From Sphingobacterium faecium (lineage in GTDB: Bacteria; Bacteroidota; Bacteroidia; Sphingobacteriales; Sphingobacteriaceae), in NCBI RefSeq assembly GCF_003054045.1, contig NZ_QBKH01000001.1:806001-870000 (forward strand): a stretch of 64,000 bases of DNA, read 5' to 3'. The notes under the pieces are model-generated. The model did no database searches and was not told the DNA's origin. It saw only the letters and a list, made by a program, of their open reading frames with translations. Made by a program: the position numbers and the translations under genes. Below are positions 57,352 through 64,000 of the stretch, one piece after another (within the stretch, counting starts at the first letter, position 1; the number at the start of each line of letters is the position of its first letter).

Positions 57352-59412
57352 ATGAAAAAATACTTGAGACAATTATCGACCAGCTTTCTAATCACCTTAA
57401 GTCCTGTGTTAGTACTTTATGCCCAGTCAAAGACCGAACTCACAAATGTATTTTTAGGATCTTCCGGCGATCACGGACAACTGTCACCGGCAGCATCTTC
57501 GCCATTCCATCAGATGAGTATCGCACCCCAAACCTATCCGACGTTGCATATGGGCTATGAACATCTAGCCAAGGAAGTATTGGGATTTACGCACAATAGA
57601 TTTGAAGGAGTAGGTTGTAAGGGTAGTGGTGGCCTGATTTTGGTAAAGCCATTTTTGGGACTTCAGGATGATGGCAAACCTCTGATTAAAGAGCAGGAAA
57701 AGGCCGGGCCAGGATATTATGATATTGCCTTAAAGAGTCGTATAAAAGCACAATTTTCGGTACATGAAAACTTTGGAATCCATGAATACACGTTTCCCGT
57801 AGGAGATAAAGGGTTATCGTTAAATCTCGCTCATGCTTTCAATGGTGCATTTGTCTCCAATACGTACACGCTTACAAAGGACGCTGTGCTCAAAGGAACT
57901 ATTCGATCAAGAACAACTTGTGGGGTGGGCATATACAGCGTCCATTATGCCATCGCTGTAGCAAACAATAGCCAGTGGAAAGGAGCAGACAATCTCTTGA
58001 CACTTCACCTCGACAATCAAACACAAAAGGTTACATTGCGTATTGCTTTTTCTGCCGTGAGTACCGATTATGCCGAGGCGACTTTAAAAGCCAATAGCAC
58101 TAAAACCTATGCTCAGGTAAAGGCTGCCTCAGATCATCGTTGGGAAACTTACCTGTCAGGTATCACGGTCAAAGGAGATCCTAATCGCGAGAAACTCTTT
58201 TACTCCTTGCTTTATCGCACCCTGCAGTCTCCTTATCAGATCAATGAATCAGATGGTCATTATAGGGGTACAGATGGCCAGATTCACCAGTCCAAAGGCA
58301 ATCGCTACCATGGATGGGCCATATGGGATAATTACAAAACACAGCTTACCTTGTTAGAACTGCTATATCCAGAGCAGTATCAAAATATCGTTTCTTCGGT
58401 TTCAGATCTTTATCGTTATGGCAAGTTTGATTTCGCAGGACCAAACGAGCCTGCAAACTCCGTTAGGACAGAACATGCAGCTGTTGTGCTTTTAGATGCG
58501 AGTAAGAAGGGATATGATATTCATTTATCCGCTATCCGTGATTCCTTAGTGCGGGATACCATGCGTTTCGATTTTTCAAAACCCGATAAAAATTTAGAAG
58601 CCGCTTATGACATGTGGGCTATGGCAGGTTTGTTACCAGCAGATCGCAAGCACTACCTCGATCGAGCCAGCAGCTATGCCGGTGTTTGGTTAAAGGAATT
58701 TAAAGATCTCGCCCGTCCGGATGTAGATCGTATGTCGGCAAGAAATATGTATCAAGGTACAGTTAGGCAATATCGCTGGAATGTACCATTTGATATGCAG
58801 GGACTGGTCAATCTGGCTGGAGGCAAAGAAGCATTTACAGCGCAATTGGATGATTTTTTTGATCATCATTATTTTAATCGCGCCAACGAACCCGATATAC
58901 AGTCACCCACATCCTATTATGCCAGCAGTAAGCCATCACGCTATCAATCATTGGTACGGGAGCTGGCTCTGGATACGGTCATACAATATTACTTTAATGA
59001 CAATAGCCGTGGTATCGATCCCTTCATAGACCAGGTATACAAGAACCAACCTAAAGCATTTGTACGGACCATGGATGACGATGCCGGCGCCATGTCAGGC
59101 TGGTTTGTATTGACGGCATTGGGCCTACATCAGCCTTTGATCGGACAGCCTATCTATTATGTCAGCGTCCCCTTATTTCCAGAGATCGTTGTACAGCGGG
59201 GAGAGCAGAAACTTAAAATCAAAGTGATCAACTATAACGATAAAAACAAGTATGTCAAACGGATTTTGCTCAATGGTAAAGATATCGACAGACTTTGGTT
59301 GCATCATGACGAACTCCGTAAAGGTGGATTACTGGAGATAGAAGCCAGTCCGGAGCTCTCCACTTATGGTGCGGAAAATATCTGGGTTTCAAGTTTGAAA
59401 GATCTAGATTAA
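57352..59412 (+). CDS. Glycoside hydrolase family 92, atypical active site
   Basis: A 686-residue exported GH92 enzyme (signal about 1-24), somewhat shorter than the usual ~740-780. Family marks: GYEHLAKEVLGFTHNRFEGVGCKGSGG (69-94), WAIWDNYKT (322-330), NEPD (512-515) and MDDDAGAMSGWFV (574-586). GH92 enzymes are Ca2+-dependent exo-alpha-mannosidases. The catalytic-acid motif normally YEGNxWQY reads YQGTVRQYRW here (467-476), so the general-acid Glu is Gln468. As I recall, this Gln is known from GH92 enzymes that cleave mannose-1-phosphate diesters, where no acid is needed. A mannose-phosphate substrate is therefore possible. Confidence 0.88.
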   Translation: MKKYLRQLSTSFLITLSPVLVLYAQSKTELTNVFLGSSGDHGQLSPAASSPFHQMSIAPQTYPTLHMGYEHLAKEVLGFTHNRFEGVGCKGSGGLILVKPFLGLQDDGKPLIKEQEKAGPGYYDIALKSRIKAQFSVHENFGIHEYTFPVGDKGLSLNLAHAFNGAFVSNTYTLTKDAVLKGTIRSRTTCGVGIYSVHYAIAVANNSQWKGADNLLTLHLDNQTQKVTLRIAFSAVSTDYAEATLKANSTKTYAQVKAASDHRWETYLSGITVKGDPNREKLFYSLLYRTLQSPYQINESDGHYRGTDGQIHQSKGNRYHGWAIWDNYKTQLTLLELLYPEQYQNIVSSVSDLYRYGKFDFAGPNEPANSVRTEHAAVVLLDASKKGYDIHLSAIRDSLVRDTMRFDFSKPDKNLEAAYDMWAMAGLLPADRKHYLDRASSYAGVWLKEFKDLARPDVDRMSARNMYQGTVRQYRWNVPFDMQGLVNLAGGKEAFTAQLDDFFDHHYFNRANEPDIQSPTSYYASSKPSRYQSLVRELALDTVIQYYFNDNSRGIDPFIDQVYKNQPKAFVRTMDDDAGAMSGWFVLTALGLHQPLIGQPIYYVSVPLFPEIVVQRGEQKLKIKVINYNDKNKYVKRILLNGKDIDRLWLHHDELRKGGLLEIEASPELSTYGAENIWVSSLKDLD

Positions 59413-59781
59413 CAGCGAATCCAACCGATCTATACACAACCGTTTGGGATAAACAAACGGCTGTGTATAGCATAAAATAATGATCGTATCTATATATTAA
59501 AAGAGCTTATCAATTACTGGTTTAAAGGGAGTGATTGGATAAAGAGTTTGAGTCTTTATTTCCTCCAGAGCCCAACGGTAAGGGAGTGCGTTTTGTAGAT
59601 AAGTTTATCACCCTTCGGTTTACTTGTCTATTTCCTGTTCTATCTGACAGAATTGCTCAATTTGCAGTAGCCGACAGCAAACGACTACTGTCGACTACAA
59701 ACGATTAATAAACGGCTAATATTTTTAGTTTTTATCATATTTGGTTTATCTAATTAATGACTTAAGCAAACCACAAAAATT
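59413..59781. other. 369-bp gap between GH92 and the rpn pseudogene
   Basis: Contains the terminator at 59431-59469, then AT-rich DNA with no gene. Short inverted repeats (CGACAG 59672-59677 with CTGTCG 59688-59693; CAGTAG 59665-59670 with CTACTG 59685-59690) lie near 59665-59693, with no known function. Confidence 0.5.
59431..59469 (+). terminator. Hairpin after GH92
   Basis: A 15-bp stem with one mismatch (TATACACAACCGTTT 59431-59445, AAACGGCTGTGTATA 59455-59469). The T tract is weak. It ends the susC-susD-ydcF-GH92 transcript. Confidence 0.7.
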
Positions 59782-60394
59782 ATGTTAGCCCATTCAAAAC
59801 CCGTATTTATTGATCCGACCACCGATGAGGGATTCAAACGTTTATTTGGAGACAAGATCAACCTGATCAATTTTCTTAACATCATCTTTCGCGGTCGCAA
59901 GAGGAGATCGGTAAGGTTATCTTTGATCTGGTTGTCCAACTCAGTACAGGGGAGGAAATTATTATCGAGATGCAGACCAGTACACAGACCAATCTTAACA
60001 GCGCATGCTATACTATGCCAGCAAGGTTATTTCAGATACAGCTCCCAAAGGCAATCGAAAGTCCTGGGGTTATGCCATTCCCCAAGTTTACACCATTGTC
60101 CTGATGGACGGTTTTCATATGCCGGGAGGTGATCATAAAACCTATTTTCATGATACCTGCCTGTGCAATAGAGATTCAGGACAAATTTTTTATGAAGGCT
60201 TGGGGTTTATTTATATGGAATTGATTAACTTTGTTAAAAGCGAAGCAGAGGTTGAAGACGAACTGGACAAAGTATTCTTTATGCTCAAGAATATGTCTAC
60301 CTTAAAGACCTTGCCACGAATTATGAATTCGGCCGTATTTCAACGGTTCTTTCAGTTTGCCAGCTACGCAAAATTGACAAAGGAGGAACGAACT

Positions 60395-60697
60395 ATGTAT
60401 GATATTAGTTTAAAACGTAAATGGGATGCCGAAGCAGTGCGGATGTATCAACAGGAACAAGTTGAAGGATTAGAAAAACAATTGGAAGGACTAGAAAAAC
60501 AATTGGAAGAGGCTAAAAAAGCATCAGTAGTAGCCAAAGCAGAAGGTGTTGCCCAAGGCGAGCACAAAAAAGCTATTGAGACAGCTTTTAATCTTACAAA
60601 TATGGGTTTACCAGTAGAACAAATTGTTGAAGCTACAGGACTTTCCATCGAAGAATTCCAGAGGATTCTGCGCAGTAAAATCGAAAAACTCAAATAG
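60395..60697 (+). CDS. RpnS-like C-terminal protein with internal start
   Basis: ATG 60395 is preceded by AAAGGAGG (60379-60386) at 8-base spacing, among the best Shine-Dalgarno sites in the window. The frame gives a 100-residue protein: helical, with a 21-bp tandem duplication (60464-60484, 60485-60505, one mismatch) encoding the heptads EGLEKQL, then EAKKASVVAKAEGVAQGEHKKAIETAF and a helix-turn-helix-like EQIVEATGLSIEEFQRILRSK. Published Rpn systems make such a C-terminal RpnS from inside rpnL as an antitoxin. That this one is expressed is inference; the SD could be a codon coincidence (AAG GAG). Confidence 0.55.
   Translation: MYDISLKRKWDAEAVRMYQQEQVEGLEKQLEGLEKQLEEAKKASVVAKAEGVAQGEHKKAIETAFNLTNMGLPVEQIVEATGLSIEEFQRILRSKIEKLK
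60464..60505 (+). repeat. 21-bp tandem repeat in the rpnS-like coding region
   Basis: Two adjacent 21-bp units (60464-60484 and 60485-60505) differ at one base and encode EGLEKQL twice, a coiled-coil heptad. In published RpnS proteins, helix repeat number varies between strains. Confidence 0.85.
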
Positions 60698-60719
60698 ATC
60701 ATCTTTTTAAAATATACAG

Positions 60720-60750
60720 AACCGCTTGAGATGACCATGCGGTTTTTTTT
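60720..60750 (+). terminator. Rho-independent terminator after rpn
   Basis: AACCGC (60720-60725) with GCGGTT (60739-60744), followed by eight T from 60743 to 60750. A canonical terminator, 23 bases after the rpn stop. Confidence 0.85.
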
Positions 60751-60850
60751 GTGGGTTTGTTATGGATTAAGGGTGACACGCGAGCAATCCTAGTAACTAC
60801 CTCAATATGCTAACTAAAAATTCGTTAAAAAACATTATTGTACAAACAAC

Positions 60851-60858
60851 TATTTTTG
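60851..60858 (+). promoter_or_regulatory. TAnnTTTG box upstream of the 11-bp-periodic field
   Basis: TATTTTTG, 30 bases before the first unit of the periodic field at 60889. No TTG at optimal spacing. If functional, the field would be transcribed on the plus strand from about 60863. Confidence 0.35.
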
Positions 60859-61239
60859 TTTTTTTTAATCTTTTCATCTGCTTATATCAAGTTTCGACTG
60901 CTCGTCTGGGCATCCTTGTACTTGAGTCGGGATTGGTTCGAGATTTGTTTGGCAGTTCTTTGACTGCTATTCGGCAAGTTGCCAAAGAAAAACCAAAGAA
61001 TAAGCATAGAATAACCAAACGAAGTACAAGGCAATGTGCACCAAAGGGGTTGGGAATACCACAGAATAAGCCTTAAAACGGTAAAGAATCGGCAATGAAA
61101 TACCAAACAAACGGTAAAGAACAAGCAAGGAAATAGTAAAGGTGATGCGAAACGGCAGTTTCTGGCAGCAACCAGATCCATACCAGTTCCTAAGCAGATT
61201 CGCACCCTGTTTTACCGAAAGTCGTCTATATACCGCTTC

Positions 61240-61284
61240 TGCACCGTCTATTTACCGTCCCTGAACCGGGAAATGGACGGTGCA
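61240..61284. repeat. Inverted repeat inside the periodic field
   Basis: TGCACCGTCTATTT (61240-61253) faces AAATGGACGGTGCA (61271-61284), 13 of 14 bases complementary with a 17-base loop. It could fold as RNA or act as a protein site. Confidence 0.6.
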
Positions 61285-61633
61285 TGGACTTTGCAACTGC
61301 GGTGCAGGGACGGGGAAGTTTAAAACAAGGTACGAACAAGGTTAAAACAAGGTACGACTCAGATCCAAATAGCCTTGACATCTTTGCTGTTAAATTTGAG
61401 GGAAAATAGGGCTTTCAAATTGGCCAAAAGTGTACCGTTAGTGTACGGGTTATTCACGGGGAGTGTACCCATGCGGTACCTAAAGTGTACGGAGAAGCTA
61501 CTGCGAAGGTGCCAAAGAGCTACTAAAGCCAGTAGCTTGGCTAATGATCTACAGGCGGAGCCTAGACCAACACGGGAACACCGTTGTTCATGTATCTCCC
61601 AAGCATGCGTAGTGCATATCCTAAGCAATGGCT

Positions 61634-61705
61634 AAGCATAGATAGTGTGTAAAAGGGTACCTGTCGATACACTATCCATGCACTATCAACGCATTATCTA
61701 TGCTT
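61634..61705. repeat. Nested inverted repeats near the end of the field
   Basis: AAGCATAGATAGTG (61634-61647) faces CATTATCTATGCTT (61692-61705), 13 of 14 paired. Inside it GATAGTGT (61641-61648) also faces ACACTATC (61669-61676). The two foldings compete. Confidence 0.6.
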
Positions 61706-61724
61706 CATCTATACTTTATCGATG

Positions 61725-62187
61725 CCCGAAAATTGCTTTATTTCAAATAAGCGCTTTTAAACGATCTAATTTATTTTGTCAGGTATTATGAGTGTTTTGA
61801 GATTAACAATCTCTCTGATCGCTTAAAATGATTCTTAAATAAGAAGGTTGAGACTATTCAGGATGTTGTGAAGGCTTGCCTCAAAGATTTTTTGCTAAAA
61901 TTTAAATTTTCAGTGTCGATGATCGCAGTGTTGATGTTTGAATGAAGGGGTCGTGGTAAGATATCCATTTTAAAAATCTGTTTGTGGCTTATGTGCAGCG
62001 GTGAAATTGACCGATTGGATTAAAAAAGCAGGAGCTTTCATGTCCGTTTGTTTTATTGTTGTGTATACAACTATATTGAATTTAAAAACAATTTTATGGC
62101 GCTGATGCGGTATGTTTAAATCAGAAAAAAGGAGGTGGCATCTCCATGCTAGAAAATTGAATACAAGAGAACCAAAGTGCATGCTAT
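61725..62187. other. 463-bp non-coding stretch after the periodic field
   Basis: Begins with a bulged hairpin (61735-61752) and GCTTTTA, a weak terminator for anything transcribed through the field. The rest is AT-rich with no recognised gene, RNA or repeat. Confidence 0.5.
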
Positions 62188-62227
62188 AAAAAAATCTTTC
62201 CAGCTCCATACTGGAAAGATTTTTTTG
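62188..62227 (-). terminator. Strong bidirectional terminator behind the GH16 gene
   Basis: A 16-bp stem of A-run plus ATCTTTCCAG (62188-62203) with CTGGAAAGAT and T run (62211-62226), loop CTCCATA. T runs exist on both strands. It lies 52 bases beyond the stop of the minus-strand glucanase gene. Confidence 0.9.
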
Positions 62228-62278
62228 TTAAAATTAGATGTTTTACTTCTTCAATTCCAGATGGATAATGGGAATGAT

Positions 62279-64000
62279 TTAAGGTAGCAATTCATATACC
62301 CGGACATAGTCAATTTCAAAAACTGAGGGAAATGATTTTTCATCGATCCCGTTTTTACCACCCCAGTTTCCGCCGATGGCTAAATTGAGCAACCAGTGGA
62401 ATTTTTGATCAAAAGGCCATTCCGCAAAGGATTTATGTTCGTTTTCAATAGAAAAAATTTCTTGATCATCGATAAATCCTTTGATGTATTCTGGGGTCCA
62501 ATCTACGCGGTATAAATGGAACACATCGGAAACACCAGCTACCTTTTTTGTGGCCGTTTTTTGAGTATTGATATTGTGGTTATACGCTTGGGTATGTGTC
62601 GATATATGCAATACATCTTGATCATAACCCACGTGTTCGAGTATGTCTATTTCACCTGAATTGGGCCAATTGCCATACGTTGATTCTGTAGGCAACATCC
62701 AGATCGCTGGCCAAGTACCGCGTCCTTTGGGCAATTTTGCTCGGGCTTCAAATCGGCCATATAAGAAATCACCCTTACCTTTACTGACCAAACGGGCAGA
62801 AGTGTAGGGTTTTCCACCTTTACTTTCTTTTAAAGCTTTGATTTTTAAAACTCCTTTGCCTACAATCGAGTTTTTGGAAGAAGACGCGACATAATACTGA
62901 TCCTCATTATTGCCCCAGCCGTTATATTTTGAACCTACATCGTACGACCATTTTGTCGTGTCTGGTAAGCCTTCGTAATTAAATTCATCTGCCCAAATGG
63001 GATCACTTGAAAAACGGTAGGTGTTTTTTGTGCCTGCGGCGCTGATGTTTGACTTATTAGCCGTTACGTAAAAAGGGATGTTGGCTGTAGCCACGTTGTT
63101 GTGACCATCGGAAACATAGACAAATAATCGGTATGCGCCTTCTTCTGTGGGAGCTGTAAGCTGTGTGTGCTGTTCACCTTCAGCTGCAATACGTCCTGGA
63201 ATAGCCTTTGGTCTTTCTTCACGATCACCTCCTTCTTTCAAGTCGGTACTTTCGTGCAGAAGCTCCCAACGTGTGGTGAGTTTGTCTCCATCTGGATCTT
63301 GTACAGACACCTGAATAGGATAACTTTTTCCGGGTTTGACATAAACAAAGTCAGCTGCCTTTTTTCCATCCAACAGCAAGGACGATACCTGTGGGGATCG
63401 GTTTGCAGGCCATTTTTTTGACCAGAGATATTCCATGACATCTACGACTGCATTTTCTTCACCTGCTTCTGTGAACAAGCCATACCAGGTAGGGGTACGC
63501 TCTTGTTTCTGTCCCCACAAAAATACATAAGAACCCAAGCAATGATTGTCTTTTCCGATCGAGGCCTCATAGCGACTTTTGTATACAGCAGCTTTTTCAC
63601 TACTATTTTCTTCAATAGAAGCAGACCAAGGAGTCTGGGTGACTTCCCAGTGTCCTGTAGGTCCCCATTCGGTGACGATGTACGGTTTTTTCCAACCGAC
63701 ACGTTTTATCTGCTCAGGCACAGAGGCTAGACCGCCATATACTTGAACAGCAATGAGATCGATAGCCGGACATTTTTCTTGGATATAGTCAAACTCCTTT
63801 TGGTTGATACCTGCCAGCATAGTGGTCACCAAATGATTGGGATCCAGCTCATGGATCATGGCCGCAATATCATTAACAGCGTCCCAAACTTTGGGATTGC
63901 TATAATGCAGGTTGAGCTCATTGCCGATTCCCCAGGCTAAAAGTGCTGGATGGTTTCGGTATTGAAGTACGGTTTTTCGTATTCCTTCCAATTGCTGAGC
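62279..64000 (-). CDS. GH2-like barrel fused to GH16 beta-glucanase (N terminus beyond the window)
   Basis: Open to the right edge (at least 573 residues visible; no stop or start before 64000), so the gene starts outside. The visible N-terminal part is a GH2-like TIM barrel with the acid/base WGIGNELNL and the nucleophile region YIVTEWGPTGHWE. A PKD/Ig-like beta domain follows (about 200-310: RSPQVSSLLLDGKK...YRLFVYVSDGHNN). The C-terminal GH16 domain has the catalytic GEIDILEH motif (ExDxxE type, as in laminarinases) and ends YVRVYELLP. Likely an exported beta-1,3-glucan enzyme; the GH2 half may trim side chains. The fusion of two catalytic modules is notable. Confidence 0.9.
   Translation of the reverse strand, partial: AQQLEGIRKTVLQYRNHPALLAWGIGNELNLHYSNPKVWDAVNDIAAMIHELDPNHLVTTMLAGINQKEFDYIQEKCPAIDLIAVQVYGGLASVPEQIKRVGWKKPYIVTEWGPTGHWEVTQTPWSASIEENSSEKAAVYKSRYEASIGKDNHCLGSYVFLWGQKQERTPTWYGLFTEAGEENAVVDVMEYLWSKKWPANRSPQVSSLLLDGKKAADFVYVKPGKSYPIQVSVQDPDGDKLTTRWELLHESTDLKEGGDREERPKAIPGRIAAEGEQHTQLTAPTEEGAYRLFVYVSDGHNNVATANIPFYVTANKSNISAAGTKNTYRFSSDPIWADEFNYEGLPDTTKWSYDVGSKYNGWGNNEDQYYVASSSKNSIVGKGVLKIKALKESKGGKPYTSARLVSKGKGDFLYGRFEARAKLPKGRGTWPAIWMLPTESTYGNWPNSGEIDILEHVGYDQDVLHISTHTQAYNHNINTQKTATKKVAGVSDVFHLYRVDWTPEYIKGFIDDQEIFSIENEHKSFAEWPFDQKFHWLLNLAIGGNWGGKNGIDEKSFPSVFEIDYVRVYELLP

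Follow-up and report, generated by a model that had tools for sequence, protein, structure and literature searches.

An 11-bp periodic field of Sphingobacterium faecium as a probable relic of the in-frame leaders of TonB-receptor operons

Haemophilus and Neisseria have contingency loci in TonB receptor genes, with nearly identical non-triplet repeats in the 5' parts and frequent switching. The units of the Sphingobacterium leaders described here, in contrast, are only about half alike. In the pil1 leader of Streptococcus gallolyticus, phase variation is combined with attenuation (PMC3894217). The pil1 and Sphingobacterium leaders have in common a translated leader, a non-triplet repeat unit, a hairpin at the end and genes for surface proteins behind it (PMC3894217). 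However, pil1 has GCAGA repeats and a transcription terminator, whereas the Sphingobacterium leaders have diverged 11-bp units and no clear terminator tail, and the leader peptide of pil1 is separate, whereas the leader here is in frame with an exported protein (PMC3894217). The CarH operator consists of three to five tandem 11-bp direct repeats at promoters, which have a TnnACA core and are bound on one face of the DNA (PMC9304148). The Sphingobacterium arrays resemble this operator in that 11-bp direct repeats have a short core and free positions, but their cores are TTCG, CGAA, CAAAG and GTAC by inspection instead of TnnACA, and dozens of units are located inside an open frame instead of three to five at promoters (PMC9304148). 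The ParR/parC centromere contains 10-, 11- or 20-bp direct repeats, along which a protein assembles on the DNA (PMC9426499). ParR/parC are plasmid partition sites, whereas none of the ORFs neighbouring the leaders was recognised as a partition gene (PMC9426499). CarH and ParR provide a precedent for 11-bp direct repeats that are bound head to tail (PMC9304148, PMC9426499). The leaders are not assignable to any of these kinds; one tested defining feature of the pil1 kind and one of the CarH kind are absent from them. A search of mainly open-access literature gave nothing on such a Sphingobacterium leader or on 11-bp arrays before SusC genes. Translated leaders that contain non-triplet repeats and precede genes for surface receptors are a known kind, while the array and its evolutionary signature are without precedent in the literature searched.

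The window analysed here is a stretch of 64,000 nucleotides of the S. faecium genome. The initial annotation had described a strict 11-bp register at 60889-61724, in which adjacent units are alike and the motif drifts along the field. The field and its most widespread segment are as follows.

60889-61724, plus strand: field in 11-bp register, probable fragment of a former leader (autocorrelation)
61428-61493, plus strand: GTAC segment, the part of the field most common to other Sphingobacterium genomes (unit print and DNA search)

The register was borne out by autocorrelation, which gives peaks at lag 11 and its multiples relative to Markov sequences. The identity within 60889-61724 is 0.444 at lag 11 (z 12.1 against 300 first-order Markov sequences), 0.412 at lag 22 (z 9.6 against the same control), 0.342 at lag 33 (z 5.6) and 0.326 at lag 44 (z 4.1), and 0.269 and 0.291 at the off-register lags 10 and 12. 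The drop in similarity from lag 11 to lag 44 agrees with the drift of the motif, and the motif positions named at multiples of 11 match the field printed in 11-base units. When the entire 64 kb were scanned at lags 5-40, the top two lag-11 places (0.472 and 0.422) were both inside the field, and any other lag gave at most the lag-22 value of the field itself (0.413). TRF reports 11- and 22-bp arrays in the field. In segments of 200 bp, the lag-11 signal extends over 60793-61805, and therefore field edges near 60889 and 61724 are plausible. When 14 stretches of 20 kb were sampled from this genome, lag 11 gave three regions of weak signal (827 bp), which is the chance level; other lags gave one to five regions each, indicating that lag 11 is not commoner there. 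One of the three weak regions (L055 13631-14019) reaches 0.42, and the GTAC pattern is present at a further place (G000:C3:211750-211786).

The region 60700-61900 was used as the query of a DNA search against 59 genomes, including that of S. faecium itself. Matches were obtained in 14 of these genomes (its own and 13 others), all from one genus. The S. faecium genome has seven separate places, the window included (73-100% identity; 73-86% for the other copies). A search of named genomes gave 25 loci, all 25 from Sphingobacterium. The loci fetched from the search with 60700-61900 all have an 11-bp field at or beside the match at the first threshold; with longer contexts and a stricter threshold, the field is present in 19 of 20 loci and absent from L080. 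GTAC at four 11-bp steps is present in 33 of 93 Sphingobacterium genomes, and the reversed control pattern in 0. G061, a genome of this genus, has 51 forward matches to the GTAC pattern, far above the other genomes of that search. When the pattern was searched throughout the order, 27 of 300 genomes matched, of which 21 belong to the same genus and six (G229, G268, G280, G281, G287 and G295) lie beyond it and have different units. The GTAC pattern alone is no proof outside the genus, because the reversed control also matched a few genomes there (e.g. G146, G242, G263, G285, G297 and G324). The two loci read outside Sphingobacterium (L093 and L096) are short GTAC arrays at 11-bp spacing in another genus, dispersed in those genomes, and the array of L096 is located inside an inverted repeat. 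At 28 receptor loci of a neighbouring genus (g25), no field was found in the DNA reaching 1.5 kb upstream of the match. Fields in 11-bp register are also located upstream of DUF6266-like genes (L047 6023-6338, L064, L074, L084, L088, L089 and L090), where the leader-like strand points away from the gene; this assignment has a Pfam match for L047 only, and none for L064 and L088.

The intact leaders consist of about 140-490 codons and mostly have an MNNFYKGG- or MQQFYANG-like start. They contain an array of short cores at 11-bp spacing, accompanied in some by a 21-bp array, and at their 3' ends continue in frame into a signal peptide, which belongs to a TlpA-like or another exported protein or else to a SusC-like receptor. 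In the S. faecium genome, the fields of L042, L043 and L046 are located within a long frame that continues into a signal peptide; the leader is followed by a SusC-like receptor in L042, and in L043 and L046 by a TlpA-like protein with a receptor behind it. The same layout is found in other Sphingobacterium species. The cargo contains Plug and CarboxypepD_reg domains and a thioredoxin-like protein (L079, L043, L042, L143 and L145). The exported protein to which the leader is fused in L066 and L076 has a small TlpA-like ORF behind it, and the leader-fused product of L066 has no Pfam match. At several loci, the divergent upstream gene has an HTH match (15 tested: five pass E 1e-3, seven are weak and three have none). 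The cores differ between array segments, and their order, TTCG/CGAA, CAAAG and GTAC, is repeated in several leaders. The 21-bp array precedes the 11-bp field in some leaders (L066, L076, L128, L130, L133 and L070) and has a constant GTG.TC.C-like core; it is codon-neutral, and its similarity does not fall with lag. The leaders of L068 and L081 are 91% identical over 1184 bp and precede clearly different TlpA-like genes, as if the cargo had been exchanged behind a common leader.

The window copy was compared with the intact leader of L042 from the same genome, which gave the following features.

61155-61930, plus strand: stretch aligned to positions 609-1383 of the intact leader L042 (DNA alignment)
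61321-61323, plus strand: stop codon in the former leader frame (alignment with L042)
61633-61635, plus strand: stop codon in the former leader frame (alignment with L042)
61639-61641, plus strand: stop codon in the former leader frame (alignment with L042)
61829-61831, plus strand: stop codon in the former leader frame, 3' of the 1-bp indel (alignment with L042)
60807-61076, plus strand: ORF with a weak resemblance, seen by eye, to the leader of L042 in its 5' part (SFGSSSTAVRQV region), located outside the DNA alignment

The aligned stretch is 86.3% identical to L042 over 775 positions, with a lone indel of 1 bp at 61786. The homology stops at 61930, and no receptor gene is located behind the window copy, the downstream ORFs being those of a minus-strand gene from 62279. 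Both the conserved leader start and the receptor gene are missing. Judged from sequence, the window copy is an ordinary relic, a decayed fragment of the in-frame leader of receptor operons. The field had initially been called non-coding. This holds for the window copy, which contains stops in all six frames (10/21/14 and 15/22/15 in 60793-61805), but not for its intact homologues; coding sequence at homologous loci, which had been set beforehand as evidence against the initial claim, was found in the intact leaders. On the window branch alone (47 changes), the match to the 11-bp neighbour is 0.304 (SE 0.055) versus 0.422. The suggested tie of the field to the rpn gene was not upheld, as no rpn gene is present among the neighbour ORFs of L042, L043 and L046 (intact) or L044 and L045 (orphan) in the same genome; the broken rpn gene beside the field is no part of the relic. 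This gene (PDDEXK_2; 59782-60697 of the window) is broken by a frameshift and contains a 21-bp coding repeat in its 3' part. A PDDEXK_2 gene is located near one foreign leader, L132, and an ORF of L065 is rpn-like by eye, yet without a Pfam match.

DNA similarity yielded 26 fields. Those that are immediately followed by cargo, 11 in number, are all open in one frame, L065 being counted as open over 95% of the field since the field call starts before the ORF. The other 15 are orphan fields without cargo, and 13 of them are not open, the exceptions being L069 and L077. Eighteen of 20 further loci, which were picked from protein matches and are therefore biased to open frames, are open; those not open are L135 and L145. 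The leader of L145 is shifted out of frame by a 1-bp insertion, with ORFs for a TlpA-like protein and a receptor still present. The openness of the 30 leaders alone proves nothing, because these leaders were taken as ORFs.

The substitutions in the leaders are distributed almost equally over the three codon positions, 285:285:299 in eight pairs without a common leader and 465:472:492 in all 14 pairs. Of the corresponding controls, the receptor part of L142/L144 gives 110:86:311, and the sequence behind L128/L130 gives 10:9:25. The control downstream of L129/L134 (6:5:4; 13 gaps in 154 positions) was dropped, because the genes behind these leaders do not align. When codons with a single change were analysed in six pairs with transitions weighted, 98 of 361 (0.271) were synonymous, as compared with a neutral expectation of 0.281 (p 0.73); in the receptor control of L142/L144, 210 of 261 were synonymous. 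With equal base-change rates, two of five gap-free pairs are above the synonymous expectation (0.375 versus 0.248 and 0.389 versus 0.255). A protein-level explanation of the leader was rejected in view of the equal codon positions and the neutral synonymous share.

The positions of the 11-bp unit are not equally free to change. The changes per site are 0.061 at the four best-kept unit phases and 0.133 at the four least kept, as determined for 14 segments with ancestors inferred from three leaders (Spearman -0.34, p 2e-5). An earlier ranking of the phases used one compared sequence, so that part of the correlation was built in; with the inferred ancestors, the contrast decreases from about threefold to about twofold. 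The ancestral match to the 11-bp neighbour is 0.355 at changed sites and 0.503 at all sites, and no similar deficit is detected at lags 9, 10, 12 and 13, the trio L128/L130/L076 being left out of these figures as poorly aligned (75.5% identity). An excess of derived bases matching the 11-bp neighbour was dropped as a signal, because lag 12 has a similar excess for transversions and the excess is therefore not specific. Differences in mutation rate between sites could mimic core constraint. Because the frame is open where cargo is present, the amino acids are neutral and the cores are kept, the leader appears to be kept for translation and for a nucleic-acid motif, not for the encoded protein.

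Indels of several kinds are found among the leaders. The leaders of L130 and L133 differ by a 33-bp indel, those of L066 and L076 by indels of 42, 42, 21 and 21 bp, and those of L129 and L131 by a -1/+1 pair 111 bp apart, with which the frame stays open. No indel is present in L128/L130 over 1491 bp or in L142/L144 over 1473 bp. In the less similar pairs L042/L043 and L068/L147, the alignment is uncertain in places and has gaps of various sizes there. The orphan fields L062, L063 and L078 show three exact 11-bp indels. The field of L135 has lost 22, 11 and 11 bp relative to L079, a comparison between different loci with one genome per species, and its leader is out of frame; because the TlpA-like gene of L135 contains a stop, the locus may be dead rather than switched OFF. 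In the stretches and leaders analysed, the lag-11 identity is about 0.4-0.6, and adjacent units are thus not near-identical as in a classical contingency minisatellite. Slippage switching would therefore be rare, since adjacent units are only about half alike and long leaders are free of indels.

A hairpin is located at the signal-peptide codons, with 22 hairpins in 17 of 30 leaders and 11 arm pairs that differ in sequence; the same search found none in the other 13. The arms are 10 or 11 bp long, and the hairpins, which are closed by AAC or AGC and GTT, share a single codon phase. When ten of the 14 hairpins with 11-bp arms were compared, both members had changed in seven of 14 pairs, and pairing was seen in 139 of 140 cells (99.3%), a value that no shuffle reached. 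The paired percentage is inflated, because the hairpins were selected by pairing; the changes on both sides are less built in by this selection. Two tandem hairpin modules 72 bp apart, which are perfect or near-perfect copies, are present in L067, L136, L138, L139 and L140. No clear terminator tail was found at the leader hairpin, and a terminator scan of L128 did not report the hairpin.

Several explanations of the array can be weighed against these results. It is highly improbable that a folded RNA, such as a riboswitch or a structured non-coding RNA, spans the whole field. The window contains several inverted repeats, and the folding z of some windows is -3 to -5 when alignments are used, with values as low as -7.4 for single sequences. 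However, the structured RNA proposed initially has no clean covariation outside the signal-peptide hairpin, windows with compensatory pairs also hold many broken pairs, the group A arrays are weakly folded, and the Rfam covariance models gave no match in 59400-62300 up to E 1. The open frame, and an 11-residue pattern seen by eye in the GTAC part of, for example, L070, would fit a protein-coding reading, in which 33-bp units encode the 11-residue repeats of a domain such as an amphipathic helix. This explanation is very hard to maintain, as the codon positions are equal, the synonymous share is neutral, lag 33 is below lag 11 and L129/L131 contain a compensated frameshift.

It is also unlikely that the array is a neutral minisatellite without function, in which an 11-bp tandem repeat grew once 5' of the signal peptide in an ancestral receptor gene, the extension being tolerated because it is removed together with the signal peptide. 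Unconstrained amino acids, the greater likeness of neighbour units than of distant ones, the exact 11-bp indels in L062/L063/L078 and the unit losses in L135 are all consistent with such growth, but core positions change less than the rest, long leaders lack any indel, the order TTCG/CGAA, CAAAG and GTAC recurs in several leaders, and a second, 21-bp array has a constant motif. A purely DNA-level array of the operator or nucleoid type, in which the open frame is needed just because the sole start of the exported gene is the leader start, would account for spacings of about one and two helical turns, for short and partly palindromic cores (TTCGAA and GTAC) and for orphan fields that lie beside other genes out of frame. 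The CarH and ParR precedents (PMC9304148, PMC9426499) and the upstream divergent genes with HTH matches at several loci agree with it. It is nevertheless improbable as the whole explanation, because the upstream regulators differ among loci with the same cores, a drift of 0.5 bp per unit would carry long arrays off one face of B-DNA, and the covarying hairpin is left unexplained.

The most likely explanation, at about even odds, is that the field has decayed from a leader that controlled the expression of a TonB-receptor operon and contained a protein-docking array, the function being inferred from sequence. According to this proposal, the exported proteins would be made only if ribosomes run from the leader start through the array and the hairpin, and a protein would dock head to tail on the DNA of the array, with about one contact per helical turn. 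Regularly spaced protein contacts, which were among the initial suggestions, remain the best reading of the array. The docking would be in DNA rather than RNA, because frameless orphan fields retain the register, a conserved fold is absent from the array, and the spacings of 11 and 21 bp correspond to about one and two helical turns. The differing cores would not be accounted for by a single binding protein. The gain or loss of a unit would break the frame, because 11 is not a multiple of three, and would thereby silence the operon. The window copy has lost the leader start and the exported gene, and its frame has decayed. More doubtful is the full combination, which we hold only tentatively: a kilobase leader that must be translated while its protein can vary freely, the same bases of which form the 11-bp (and 21-bp) array for a head-to-tail protein, so that the receptor genes would be read only when ribosomes pass the loaded array, and the loss or gain of one unit would switch them off by shifting the frame.

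Under the proposed reading, orphan fields with this periodicity, of which the window copy is one, would be explained as leader remains. The leaders also serve as a warning that long ORFs before receptor genes can be mistaken for proteins, and they would provide a clean test case for sequence that is translated yet unconstrained. If the proposed reading is right, the control of surface receptors in this Bacteroidota genus would uncouple an open reading frame from its amino-acid sequence, and selection would appear to act on translation and on a periodic motif in the nucleic acid rather than on the peptide.
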